From assembly GCA_015163875.1 (NCBI GenBank), contig JAAOIH010000010.1:1-42180 (forward strand): a stretch of DNA of 42,180 nt, written 5' to 3'. Source of the stretch: Bdellovibrionales bacterium. GTDB taxonomy: Bacteria; Bdellovibrionota; Bdellovibrionia; Bdellovibrionales; UBA1609. Positions 13,515 to 18,011 of this stretch are shown one piece after another (positions within the stretch are counted from its first letter, which is position 1; every line of letters starts with the position of its first letter). The position numbers and the translations under genes were made by a program. Below the pieces are notes generated by a model. It did not search any database. It was not told the origin of the DNA and saw only the letters and a program-made list of their open reading frames with translations.

Positions 13515-15179
13515 ATGTCGTATGAAGTTATCGCCCGTAAATGGCGGCCTCTTAATTTTGATCAACTTTTAGGTCAAGAACATATTAGTCAAACTTTAAA
13601 AAATGCAATTAATAATAAGCGTCTTTCGCATGCGTTTTTATTTACTGGACCAAGGGGGACTGGAAAAACTTCTGCATCTCGCATTTTAGCAAAAACTTTA
13701 AGATGCGAAAAAAATTCTGATCTTTTAAAATCAGAATCTTGTAATAAATGTGATGAATGTTTAAAAATTTCTTCTGCTAATTCGCTAGATGTTTTAGAAA
13801 TCGACGGAGCCTCTAATAATGGAGTGGATGCAATTAGAGAGTTAAGAGAAACTATAAAATATATGCCGTCTTCTGGAAAATATAAATTATATATTATAGA
13901 CGAAGTTCATATGTTATCTAACAGCGCATTTAATGCTTTGTTAAAAACTTTAGAAGAGCCACCTGATTATGTAATTTTTATTTTAGCAACTACAGAGGTG
14001 CAAAAAATTCCTGATACTATTTTATCTCGTTGCCAAAGATTTGATTTTCGTAGAATTTCTATTACGATAATTAGTAAGCATTTAGAAAATATATGTAAAC
14101 AAGAAAATATAACTCCAGATAAACAAAGTTTATTTTTAATTGCAAAACATGGCGAAGGCTCTATGCGAGATAGCCAAAGTTTGCTTGATCAAGTTATAAC
14201 TTTTAGCGGAAAAAAACTTTCTTTAGAAAAAAGTATTCAAGTATTAGGCCTTACGCCAAGAGAATTATTAAATTTAAGTTTAGAGGTGTTTTTATCATCT
14301 GATGAAGATAAATCTAAAAATCTTATTAAAAAATTATCACAATCAAGCATCGACCCTAAAATTTTTTTAGGCGAGTTGATAGAAGAAATTAGACATTTAC
14401 TTTTAATAAAAACTTGCCCTAATAATTTAGAAGAACTTATACCATTAAGCAGTAACGACAGACAGCATCTAAGCCAAATCGCTCAAAAATTTTCTCACAA
14501 ACAAATATATTTTCTTTTTAGAGAGGCTTTAAATGCTTATGAAGATTGCTCTAAAATGCCTGATCCTTTTATGATTTTAGAATTTTTTATACTAAAATTA
14601 TCTTATCAATTACATAACTTAGAAAATATTTTATTAGAAAACAAAACTGAAAAAACAATTAACATTCCAAGCCCTGAGGTTAATACTTTTGATACAAATA
14701 ATATTAAAAGCCCTGCTGTTAATACCGCTGATACAAATAATATTCCAAGCCCAACAAGTAGTCAGGATTCTCAGCCAGACTTTGCTTATTATTGGTCTTC
14801 GCTTGTTAAAAAAATTGCTAACATAAACCCTCCCCTTAGCAGTAAGTTATCTAATACTTTTTTAAAAACTGTTGAAAATAAAATTATTAAAATTGGTGTT
14901 CCAAAAAGTCATGAATTTTTATTAGAGGAGTTTGCTGACAAAAATTTTATACAAAAATTAAAAAATTATATTAAAACTTTTTGGAATCGTGATTACGGTA
15001 TAGAGTTTTTTTTAAGTGACGCCACAGAACATCAAAAAAGCCCTAGCGGTCAAATAAAGCAACAAGACAAAAAAGAAGCAGAAGAATTAAAAAATAAAGT
15101 TGACCAAAATGATTTAGTTCAACAAATTAAAAAAGAGCTAGGCATAAATGTTAAAAGCATAAAAAAAATAAACAATTAA
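13515..15179 (+). CDS. dnaX: DNA polymerase III subunits gamma and tau
   Basis: This 554-residue clamp-loader ATPase assembles the replicative polymerase and loads the sliding clamp. Walker A GPRGTGKT is at 45-52, zinc-binding cysteines are C64, C76, C79 and C82, and Walker B YIIDEVHM is at about 126-133; the SRC motif appears as LSRCQRF. The C-terminal part has a Ser/Thr/Asn-rich linker with 13-residue repeats, then a tau-like tail. I see no convincing frameshift site for a shorter gamma form. AAGGA lies 11 nt before the ATG. It is the first protein gene of the dnaX-ybaB-recR-mglA cluster. Its stop codon is within a 21-bp duplication. Confidence 0.97.
   Translation: MSYEVIARKWRPLNFDQLLGQEHISQTLKNAINNKRLSHAFLFTGPRGTGKTSASRILAKTLRCEKNSDLLKSESCNKCDECLKISSANSLDVLEIDGASNNGVDAIRELRETIKYMPSSGKYKLYIIDEVHMLSNSAFNALLKTLEEPPDYVIFILATTEVQKIPDTILSRCQRFDFRRISITIISKHLENICKQENITPDKQSLFLIAKHGEGSMRDSQSLLDQVITFSGKKLSLEKSIQVLGLTPRELLNLSLEVFLSSDEDKSKNLIKKLSQSSIDPKIFLGELIEEIRHLLLIKTCPNNLEELIPLSSNDRQHLSQIAQKFSHKQIYFLFREALNAYEDCSKMPDPFMILEFFILKLSYQLHNLENILLENKTEKTINIPSPEVNTFDTNNIKSPAVNTADTNNIPSPTSSQDSQPDFAYYWSSLVKKIANINPPLSSKLSNTFLKTVENKIIKIGVPKSHEFLLEEFADKNFIQKLKNYIKTFWNRDYGIEFFLSDATEHQKSPSGQIKQQDKKEAEELKNKVDQNDLVQQIKKELGINVKSIKKINN
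14661..14753 (+). repeat. 39-bp in-frame repeats in the dnaX linker
   Basis: Units at 14661-14699 and 14700-14738 encode NIPSPEVNTFDTN and NIKSPAVNTADTN. A partial third unit (14739-14753) encodes NIPSP. Period 39 bp is in frame, so copy number could vary without breaking the protein. Confidence 0.85.
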
Positions 15180-15228: not shown

Positions 15229-15558
15229 ATGAAAGGTTCTAAAAATATGGCTGGTGGAATGCAACAAATGATAAAGCAGGCTAACCAAATGCAAAATCGC
15301 ATTAAAAAAATTCAAGAAGATTTAAATCAAAAAACTTATTCTGGAAAATCTGGCGGCGAAGCTGTTTGCGTAACTGTTTCTGGAGAGTATTTAATATCAA
15401 CAATTAGCATTAAAGACGAATTATTTAAAGATGCCGATAAAGAAATGCTGCAAGATTTAATTACAATAGCGGCAAATGATGCAATAAAATCTGCAAAAGA
15501 AGATTCAGAAACACAAATGGGCCAGGCAACTGGTGGGGCAATGCCTGGTTTATTTTAA
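15229..15558 (+). CDS. ybaB: YbaB/EbfC-family nucleoid-associated protein
   Basis: This 109-residue DNA-binding protein is typical of the family: MQQMIKQANQMQNRIKKIQ near the N-terminus, then the VCVTVSGEY-type strand region and a C-terminal helix. YbaB/EbfC dimers bind DNA and usually sit between dnaX and recR, exactly as here. An AAGGGA ribosome site precedes ATG 15229; a second ATG at 15247 is an alternative. It ends five nt before recR. Confidence 0.93.
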   Translation: MKGSKNMAGGMQQMIKQANQMQNRIKKIQEDLNQKTYSGKSGGEAVCVTVSGEYLISTISIKDELFKDADKEMLQDLITIAANDAIKSAKEDSETQMGQATGGAMPGLF

Positions 15559-15563
15559 TATTT

Positions 15564-16184
15564 ATGCAGCATATTCAATCGCTACAAAGCCTTATTAATG
15601 AACTCTGTAAATTGCCAGGCATTGGTGTTAAAACTGCACAAAGGCTGGCGTATTTTATTTTAAAAAAATCTGATCAAAATATTCCTGCATTAGTTCAATC
15701 ATTAAACGATATTCAAGCTAATGTTAAATTATGTAACAAATGTTTTGATTTTACAGAGCAAAAACAAATTTGCGACACTTGCACAAATCATAAACGAAAC
15801 GCTCAAAATATTTGTGTTGTAGAAGATCCATCTGGTATTCAAAAAATAGAATCTGCTGGTGTTTACAACGGTCTTTATCATGTTTTGCACGGCAGTTTGT
15901 CTCCGCTAGACGGCATTGGTGTAGAAGATTTAAAGATTGCAGAGTTATTTAAAAGAATAGAAGAATCACTTGTTACAGAATTACCAATTACAGAAATTAT
16001 TTTTGCCTTAGACCCCGACCTTGAAGGCGACACTAGTATTTTATATATTTCAAAACAATTAAGTAATTATAAAAATATTAAAATTACTCAATTAGCCCAC
16101 GGAGTTCCAGTAGGTGGAGACATTGAGTACATTAACTACAGAACTCTTGCAAAAGCTTTAGAAAACAGAATAGAAGTTTCTTAA
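15564..16184 (+). CDS. recR: Recombination protein RecR
   Basis: This 206-residue RecR acts with RecF and RecO to load RecA at single-strand gaps. The helix-hairpin-helix LPGIGVKTAQRLA is near residues 17-29. A four-cysteine zinc site is present (LCNKC and ICDTC). The Toprim domain starts with CVVEDPSGIQKIE and includes YHVLHGSLSPLDGIG. Length is standard. It is packed between ybaB and mglA with gaps of five and four nt. Confidence 0.97.
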   Translation: MQHIQSLQSLINELCKLPGIGVKTAQRLAYFILKKSDQNIPALVQSLNDIQANVKLCNKCFDFTEQKQICDTCTNHKRNAQNICVVEDPSGIQKIESAGVYNGLYHVLHGSLSPLDGIGVEDLKIAELFKRIEESLVTELPITEIIFALDPDLEGDTSILYISKQLSNYKNIKITQLAHGVPVGGDIEYINYRTLAKALENRIEVS

Positions 16185-16188
16185 AAAT

Positions 16189-16776
16189 ATGTCTTTCATT
16201 AATTACGCAGCAAATGAAATCACTTGTAAAATTGTATACTGCGGCCCGTCTTGTGCTGGAAAAACTACAAATATGCAGTGGATATACCATAATTTACAAA
16301 ATCAAAAATCAAATGGAATACTGCAGTTACCATTTGATATAGAAAGAACTTTATTTTTTGATTTTCTTCCTCTTGATTTAGGAAAGGTTCAGGGTATTAA
16401 TGTAAAATTTCATTTATACAGTGTCCCTGGTGAATTAAATTTAAAACAAAATAGAAAAATTATTTTAAATGCTGTTGATGGAATTGTTTTTATTGCAGAT
16501 TCATCATCAGATAAAAAACAAAATAATTTAGATTCACTAAAAGATATTAAAGAAATTCTTACAAGCCTTGGGTACGATATTAAAAAAATGCCGTTTGTTT
16601 TTCAATACAACAAAAGAGACGCTCAAGACATTATGGATGTTAGCGAAATGCGGCTTGATCTTAATCAATATCAAAATATAGATTTTCAAGCTCAATCTAT
16701 ACAAGGAGAAGGTGTTTTAAAAACTTTTAAAGGTATTTCTAAATTAATATTAGATCAAATACAATCCAAAAACTAA
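16189..16776 (+). CDS. mglA: MglA-like Ras-family GTPase with altered catalytic positions
   Basis: This 195-residue small GTPase closely follows bacterial MglA. MSFINYAANEI opens the protein, the P-loop is GPSCAGKTT (19-27), the switch region is ERTLFFDFLPL (52-62), and NKRD (141-144) gives guanine specificity. MglA sets cell polarity and controls motility in Myxococcus and affects predation in Bdellovibrio. R53 is kept, but Myxococcus G21 is Ser here and the catalytic Q82 is Glu (SVPGE). Both changes would be expected to slow GTP hydrolysis. No mglB is in the window. It ends the dnaX cluster and overlaps the convergent VWA gene by 4 nt. Confidence 0.88.
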   Translation: MSFINYAANEITCKIVYCGPSCAGKTTNMQWIYHNLQNQKSNGILQLPFDIERTLFFDFLPLDLGKVQGINVKFHLYSVPGELNLKQNRKIILNAVDGIVFIADSSSDKKQNNLDSLKDIKEILTSLGYDIKKMPFVFQYNKRDAQDIMDVSEMRLDLNQYQNIDFQAQSIQGEGVLKTFKGISKLILDQIQSKN

Positions 16777-18011
16777 ATACTTCTTAAACATTTATATTTT
16801 AGTTTTACTATTGTTCCTTTTGGCAACACTTGACTAAAAATTAATATTCTTCCAGATTTGCTGTAGGAAATATGTCTTAAACTTCGTGGAAGCTCCACTG
16901 TTATTGCATCATTTATAGGAGCGCAGTGAAGTTGTAATTTATTTTGATGAGTTTTAATCTCCCTTGCAATTCTACCAAGATGTCCGTTGTAATCTGTTGC
17001 ACCTTTGCATATATTTCCCATAACTCCAGAAACCATTCCGCTATCACCTATTATGTCATCTGATGGTGACACTAATTTTGCATAAGTATTAGCATAATTA
17101 GCACAAGTATATTTATGACATTTTTTATTAATAATTTCTTTTATTGTGCACTCGTTCCATTCTAAAGTAGATGGATTTTTTTTATAAAACTTACCACATC
17201 TTTCATTTTGTTTGTCCAGACATGCTAAATCCCCTGGCACAACTGCAATTGCATTTACGCTAAATGATTTGCTAGCTCCAAATCGTAAAAATACTTTAGA
17301 TGATAAAGTTTCTGGAAGATTATTTTCTTTTAACTTTTCTCCTCTAGAGTTTTCATCTTCGTCAGAAACAATAATAATAGAAAATCTAGAGTTACTTCTA
17401 AAAAAACTACTGTTGCCTCTGTTTAAAAAAGCATTAACTGCTGCAATACCACTTTCATATTTAGAAGTACATTTTTCTGGATCAAATCCACTAGTCTCAC
17501 ACTCTAAAGTTTCTTTACGCTTAATAGTGTTTTTAAATAATGTTACTGCATCTCTTGCGTAATATGGATTATTTGGGTCATTGCTAATAATACTTCTTCC
17601 ACTCCCCTCAAATGGCATTAATGTTCCGGCTCTGTGTTTATCTCCGCTAACATCTGCTGTTATAATTCCAATTTGATATGAAACATTAGCATCGCTATTA
17701 GTTATTTCTCTTATAAATCTATCAAAATTTCTAGCAATATTTTGTTGATCTTCATACATAGATCCAGAGTTATCTATAACAAATAATAAATCTAATCTGC
17801 GTAAAATTTTTGTTGGGTAGGTAAGATCTTCGTAACCGTCTTCGTTTCCTTCGGCATCTTTGTAAAGACATGATGTTTTTGCGTCGTTGTCGCCGCGAAA
17901 TTTAGAGCAAACTGGTCCGATTCCTTCTTCAAAATTAACTTCACTGCAGCCAATATATATTCCAAACGAAAATCCCATTAGTACTAATGCTTTAAAAAAT
18001 TTTCCCCACAT
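16773..18011 (-). CDS. VWA-domain lipoprotein
   Basis: This 412-residue protein has a lipoprotein signal with a probable lipidated C22 (IYIGC). The von Willebrand factor A domain starts near residue 73 with LLFVIDNSGSM, giving the MIDAS metal-site residues D80, S82 and S84. A further strand is FSIIIVSDEDENSRG. Several cysteines in the second half could form disulfides, in keeping with export. VWA proteins mediate metal-dependent protein binding; the partner here is unknown. The gene converges on mglA with a 4-nt overlap. No ribosome site of note precedes the ATG. Confidence 0.85.
   Translation of the reverse strand: MWGKFFKALVLMGFSFGIYIGCSEVNFEEGIGPVCSKFRGDNDAKTSCLYKDAEGNEDGYEDLTYPTKILRRLDLLFVIDNSGSMYEDQQNIARNFDRFIREITNSDANVSYQIGIITADVSGDKHRAGTLMPFEGSGRSIISNDPNNPYYARDAVTLFKNTIKRKETLECETSGFDPEKCTSKYESGIAAVNAFLNRGNSSFFRSNSRFSIIIVSDEDENSRGEKLKENNLPETLSSKVFLRFGASKSFSVNAIAVVPGDLACLDKQNERCGKFYKKNPSTLEWNECTIKEIINKKCHKYTCANYANTYAKLVSPSDDIIGDSGMVSGVMGNICKGATDYNGHLGRIAREIKTHQNKLQLHCAPINDAITVELPRSLRHISYSKSGRILIFSQVLPKGTIVKLKYKCLRSI

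Follow-up and report, generated by a model that had tools for sequence, protein, structure and literature searches.

MglA of a small-genome Bdellovibrionales lineage: glutamate at the catalytic glutamine position of a GAP-less GTPase with a possibly dispensable off-step

The analysed window (i.e. the whole stretch of 42,180 nucleotides from a Bdellovibrionales bacterium related to the predator Bdellovibrio) encodes an MglA in which the catalytic glutamine, Gln82, is replaced by glutamate. Judged from the sequence, the best reading, for which the chances seem roughly even, is that of an MglA that has no further need of its off-step and is putatively locked in the GTP state. In this reading MglA would have been inherited vertically in a small-genome lineage of the Bdellovibrionales, with MglB absent order-wide and position 21 already occupied by serine, after which Gln82 became Glu in genus g1 (the genus of the window), GTP hydrolysis as an off-step most likely being no longer under selection. 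Such a protein would still bind GTP (the P-loop, T54 and NKRD are kept), would be permanently or nearly permanently GTP-loaded for lack of hydrolysis, and in this loaded form would support a type IV pilus at a single pole via a Bd2492-type TPR protein, with polarity being set by the location of the partners rather than by nucleotide cycling.

The idea that a GAP-less MglA may be stuck in its GTP state goes back to 2014, when it was based on a single residue. The family described here offers natural single and multiple active-site variants, all of them orthologs and graded from slight to extreme, which makes the idea directly testable. It may provide a bacterial parallel to the GTPase-deficient Rho proteins, of which atypical RhoH and Rnd have a changed catalytic Gln position and are GTP-locked, as well as an example of a switch that gives up its off-step once polarity is set at a single pole.

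The protein and its locus

Residues 1-192 of the protein align without gaps to residues 1-192 of Myxococcus xanthus MglA (E=3.8e-57 to 6hjh, phmmer), so that the original prediction, which had claimed gap-free numbering up to residue 90, was if anything modest. The best PDB matches, both by sequence and by model, are M. xanthus MglA (6izw, 6h17, 6hjo), and the top 14 PDB matches of the AlphaFold2 model are all MglA, although the model is of modest quality (mean pLDDT 76, below 50 in switch I) and silent on catalysis. The features of Group 1 are largely present, namely the sequence and fold match to MglA, the P-loop GxxxxGKT (here GPSCAGKT), NKxD (here NKRD) and the Arg finger next to the Thr of switch I (R53-T54, as also in a second species of the genus), which is intrinsic and reported to be conserved in all Group 1 MglA (PMC4316618). 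Only the G3 motif TVPGQ deviates, reading SVPGE, and the departure is Q82E; T78S is tolerated in M. xanthus MglA (PMC3000849). By sequence, predicted fold, Arg finger, P-loop and NKRD the protein is classed as an MglA of Group 1, without the Gln of TVPGQ.

Table 1. Positions of mglA, its motifs and its upstream neighbours in the window
Feature	Position	Strand	Remarks
mglA	16189..16776	+	195 aa; MglA Group 1 small GTPase; S21/R53/T54/E82
P-loop codons 19-27, GPSCAGKTT	16243..16269	+	codon 21 TCT (Ser) = 16249-16251
R53-T54	16345..16350	+	intrinsic Arg finger and switch I Thr; both present
G3/switch II motif SVPGE	16420..16434	+	codon 82 GAA (Glu) = 16432-16434, elsewhere-conserved Gln
G4 motif NKRD (141-144)	16609..16620	+	intact
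recR	15564..16184	+	conserved upstream neighbour; orthology anchor
ybaB/ebfC	15229..15558	+	absent at this locus in more decayed sister genera
dnaX	13515..15179	+	neighbour of recR-mglA locus

The codons (TCT, GAA) confirm the predicted changes of Gly21 to Ser and Gln82 to Glu, and R53 is retained. The second species of genus g1 (G001) has an MglA that is 78% identical and likewise carries S21, R53 and E82, which rules out a sequencing error at codon 82. The protein thus shares with M. xanthus MglA its fold, numbering, R53, T54 and NKRD, whereas the latter has G21, Q82, MglB as a GAP and bipolar switching with Frz. Thermus thermophilus MglA (3t12, 3t1q) has the same Group 1 fold and intrinsic Arg finger, but a canonical Gln and a cognate MglB GAP.

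As predicted, the window contains no mglB, the end of recR being separated from mglA by 4 nt. At every locus with enough flank read, mglA lies downstream of recR, from which it follows that the altered MglA loci of the sister genera are orthologs; the same synteny rules out horizontal gain of mglA. On the other side, a convergent 412-aa gene (window 16773-18011, minus strand) that weakly matches von Willebrand A shares 4 nt with mglA at the stop of the latter, and the 53% identity of this convergent gene to its ortholog in G001 is the lowest among the neighbours compared. The window has ybaB between dnaX and recR, while ybaB is missing from the locus in g2, g14 and g15 (L147-L154); in G014, dnaX lies downstream of the locus on the opposite strand.

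MglB and position 21 in the order

The source genome (1,294,250 bases in 50 contigs) is 93% complete, and a search of this assembly yielded no second, canonical MglA, the sole other match (E=0.05) lying within a large ORF. No MglB/Roadblock protein was found in the source genome with the Robl_LC7 profile (PF03259), nor did the profile exceed its cut-off in any of the 59 genomes of the order (source and 58 relatives). Of 14 control genomes, however, no more than 3 scored over this cut-off, and a highly divergent MglB, e.g. that reported for Bacteriovorax marinus, could escape the profile. Within these bounds MglA stands alone and without MglB, as the original prediction would have it, and the MglB Roadblock GAP of an MglA/MglB switch module was not found in the source genome. 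In one relative (G003), about 1.5 kb separates recR and mglA (L156:3928-5414), which is mglB's place in other bacteria; the PF03259 search of that genome found nothing. A canonical relative has an extra C-terminal MglA fragment at a contig end (G032:C115:7062-7439, 42% identity), perhaps from a strain mixture or a duplicate.

MglA was found in all 59 genomes searched, and Ser21 is the rule among the canonical relatives, with Ala as the single exception. Going by this comparison, Ser21 is ancestral in the order and no peculiarity of the window MglA. Of the 80 MglA loci taken from other genomes, Ser21 occurs in 14, none of them with mglB nearby, and Gly21 in 66, of which 57 have it nearby. For Bdellovibrio bacteriovorus Bd3734, Milner et al. 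reported in 2014 that position 21 is Ser, that mglB is lost and that the gene order dnaX-DUF149-recR-mglA is conserved, and a permanently GTP-bound, GAP-less MglA was already inferred (PMC3983030); no biochemistry on any S21 MglA was found in the literature. Thus, of the two positions originally presented as changes of this protein, only the one at 82 is particular to its genus, whereas S21 is order-wide and already published.

The likeness to Bd3734 (PMC3983030) extends to Ser21, the missing MglB, the order dnaX-DUF149-recR-mglA, the encoded Bd2492 TPR protein and, tentatively, RomR, and the proposed permanent GTP state. Unlike the window protein with its E82, the Bdellovibrio-family genomes read keep Q82 and R53, and unlike that of B. 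bacteriovorus, the putative RomR of the source genome is short, with a C-terminus lacking Trp and Pro. By residues and partners, the window MglA resembles the GAP-less MglA of Bdellovibrio, GTP locking being putative.

Position 82 and the sister genera

None of the 80 MglA loci of other genomes and none of the 52 canonical relatives departs from Q82 or R53, whereas Q82E is restricted to the two species of genus g1 (the window genome and G001). Q82E is therefore the new one of the two substitutions. What Glu at this position would do is less clear, since the precedents are opposed. Deamidation of Gln to Glu in Rho/Rac abolishes both intrinsic and GAP-stimulated hydrolysis (PMC12607883), whereas Q61E in Ras raises intrinsic GTPase activity (PMC10515638, PMC2987813). 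Rac and Rho deamidated by CNF1 (PMC12607883) share with the window MglA the change of the catalytic Gln and, putatively, the GTP-locked state, but they are eukaryotic Rho-family proteins in which the change is made by a toxin and not encoded. In M. xanthus MglA, Q82A and Q82R left the protein undetectable, whereas Q82L was stable (in a different study), and G21V gave partial motility (PMC3000849). The statement in the original prediction that changes at G21 or Q82 lock the GTP state is therefore too strong for Q82. Its further suggestion of a slowly cycling or constitutively GTP-bound protein is favoured by the lone, GAP-less MglA with altered positions 21 and 82, but not by the opposed Glu precedents; by analogy, no single outcome is predicted for Glu at the catalytic Gln, and sequence alone is indecisive. 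As to its suggested control by exchange factors, the source genome does encode a short RomR-like protein.

In fact, position 82 is altered in 4 of the 26 genera of the family. Genus g1 has S21, R53, T54 and E82; g2 has P21, P53, T54 and D82; g14 has V or T21, P53, S54 and N82; and in g15 position 21 is K or E, switch I is shortened or absent, VPGQ is missing and T26 is replaced. R53 is thus lost in g2, g14 and g15, and the mglA of g15 still adjoins recR with both switches gone. Lost conserved positions are concentrated at switch and catalytic sites in g2 (p=0.020), g14 (p=0.013) and g15 (p=0.0008; Fisher), but not in g1 (4/19 vs 15/54, p=0.76; Fisher). The clade of g2, g14 and g15 has a support of 100 in both the RpoB and the DnaX+RecR tree, whereas g1 joins it with a support of 66 (RpoB) or stands apart with 33 (DnaX+RecR), having a long RpoB branch and evolving fast in every gene examined.

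It is as if lineages without the need to switch MglA off dismantle the active site while retaining the protein. The family may, with a probability that we place a little short of one half, represent a stepwise series from S21/Q82/R53 to E82, then to P/V21-P53-D/N82 and finally to the absence of switches I and II, i.e. from a GAP-less GTPase to a non-hydrolysing and then a switch-less protein, with pilus output and the TPR partner being kept. The lack of switch enrichment in g1 is, however, a real weakness for Q82E as a targeted change, since this genus evolves fast and Q82E, taken by itself, could be just one among numerous changes that are tolerated.

Alternatively, E82 could keep or even speed up intrinsic hydrolysis, with Glu acting as a general base next to R53 in a GAP-independent, self-timed switch. 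The raised intrinsic GTPase of Ras Q61E (PMC10515638, PMC2987813) speaks for this and, by analogy, against a GTP lock; likewise, R53, T54, switch I and the P-loop Lys and Thr are intact in g1, where R53 and switch I would be needless without hydrolysis, which counts against loss of the off-step. We nevertheless consider a self-timed switch unlikely, because hydrolysis looks dispensable in a family whose sister genera have D or N at position 82 and lost R53, a pattern that it fits less well than does a dispensable off-step, and because the same Gln-to-Glu change blocks hydrolysis in Rho/Rac (PMC12607883). A pseudo-GTPase whose nucleotide state is irrelevant, and which merely holds RomR and TPR partners at the pole, would suit g15, where the gene remains at its locus with intact reading frames in spite of lacking switch I, VPGQ and the P-loop Thr. 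For g1 it seems improbable, as all G1-G4 binding residues are present and M. xanthus mutants unable to bind GTP lose the MglA protein (PMC3000849).

Selection, pilus motors and partners

Between the two g1 species, dN and dS are 0.127 and 1.21 for mglA, compared to 0.110 and 1.07 for recR and 0.121 and 1.08 for dnaX. With a dN/dS of about 0.1, like that of recR, mglA is still under purifying selection. In the other genera synonymous sites are near saturation, which leaves low dN as the sole informative measure, and the MglA of g15 has a faster rate of evolution than RecR. The mglA reading frames are intact in the altered genomes.

Every one of the 59 genomes has PilT-family ATPases, and the family cut-off is exceeded in 58, among them the seven altered genomes searched. 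In the source genome the genes for PilB, PilT and PilC precede those for a histidine kinase and a regulator with a receiver domain (PilS/PilR-like), and there is a second PilT. The TPR protein Bd2492, which co-purifies with MglA in B. bacteriovorus (PMC3983030), was located on the basis of its size (353 aa vs 40.5 kDa in PMC3983030) and of the gene order TPR-efp-Bd2492-TamB-TamA. Its ortholog (Bd2492/SgmX1) in the source genome is intact, has 340 aa and lies beside efp; orthologs by position were also found in G001, G002, G014 and G015, those outside genus g1 resting on synteny and weak similarity (21-31%). TamB (PF04357) was not found in the source genome, while the sister species has it; this may be a contig gap, as the preceding Bd2492 ortholog is near the end of contig C23. 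The source genome thereby has Ser21, no MglB found and a Bd2492-type TPR protein, the combination of a Bdellovibrio-type GAP-less hub.

Neutral drift in a shrinking genome, with MglA on its way out and E82 a decay step without functional meaning, appears doubtful: the four altered genera do have the four smallest genome sizes among the 26 (p=0.002, overstated as they represent one or two independent events), g1 is fast-evolving in all genes examined and RomR is shortened, but the dN/dS of mglA equals that of recR and dnaX, its reading frames are intact in the altered genomes, and both the pilus motors and the TPR partner persist. The loss of Q82, then of R53 and then of the switches, while gene, pilus motors and TPR protein stay, is consistent with an off-step made dispensable by a fixed piliated pole, as proposed for Bdellovibrio.

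RomR was identified in the Bdellovibrio-family genome G048 via the landmarks of B. bacteriovorus RomR (Asp-Glu, MQLAL, phospho-Asp and Lys) at a constant offset of two (PMC6428892), as well as via the Trp and Pro of RomR-C (PMC3441718). Across the order, romR adjoins lptF. The lptF-linked RomR-like protein of the source genome (L202:860-1585, G000:C44) is shortened to 241 aa and keeps its receiver domain, and its RomR-C-like tail lacks the otherwise invariant Trp and Pro. In g14 (L231-L233), RomR-C is intact (WQVVP) and the receiver domain degenerate, reminiscent of the receiver truncation that has been reported in RomR of B. bacteriovorus.
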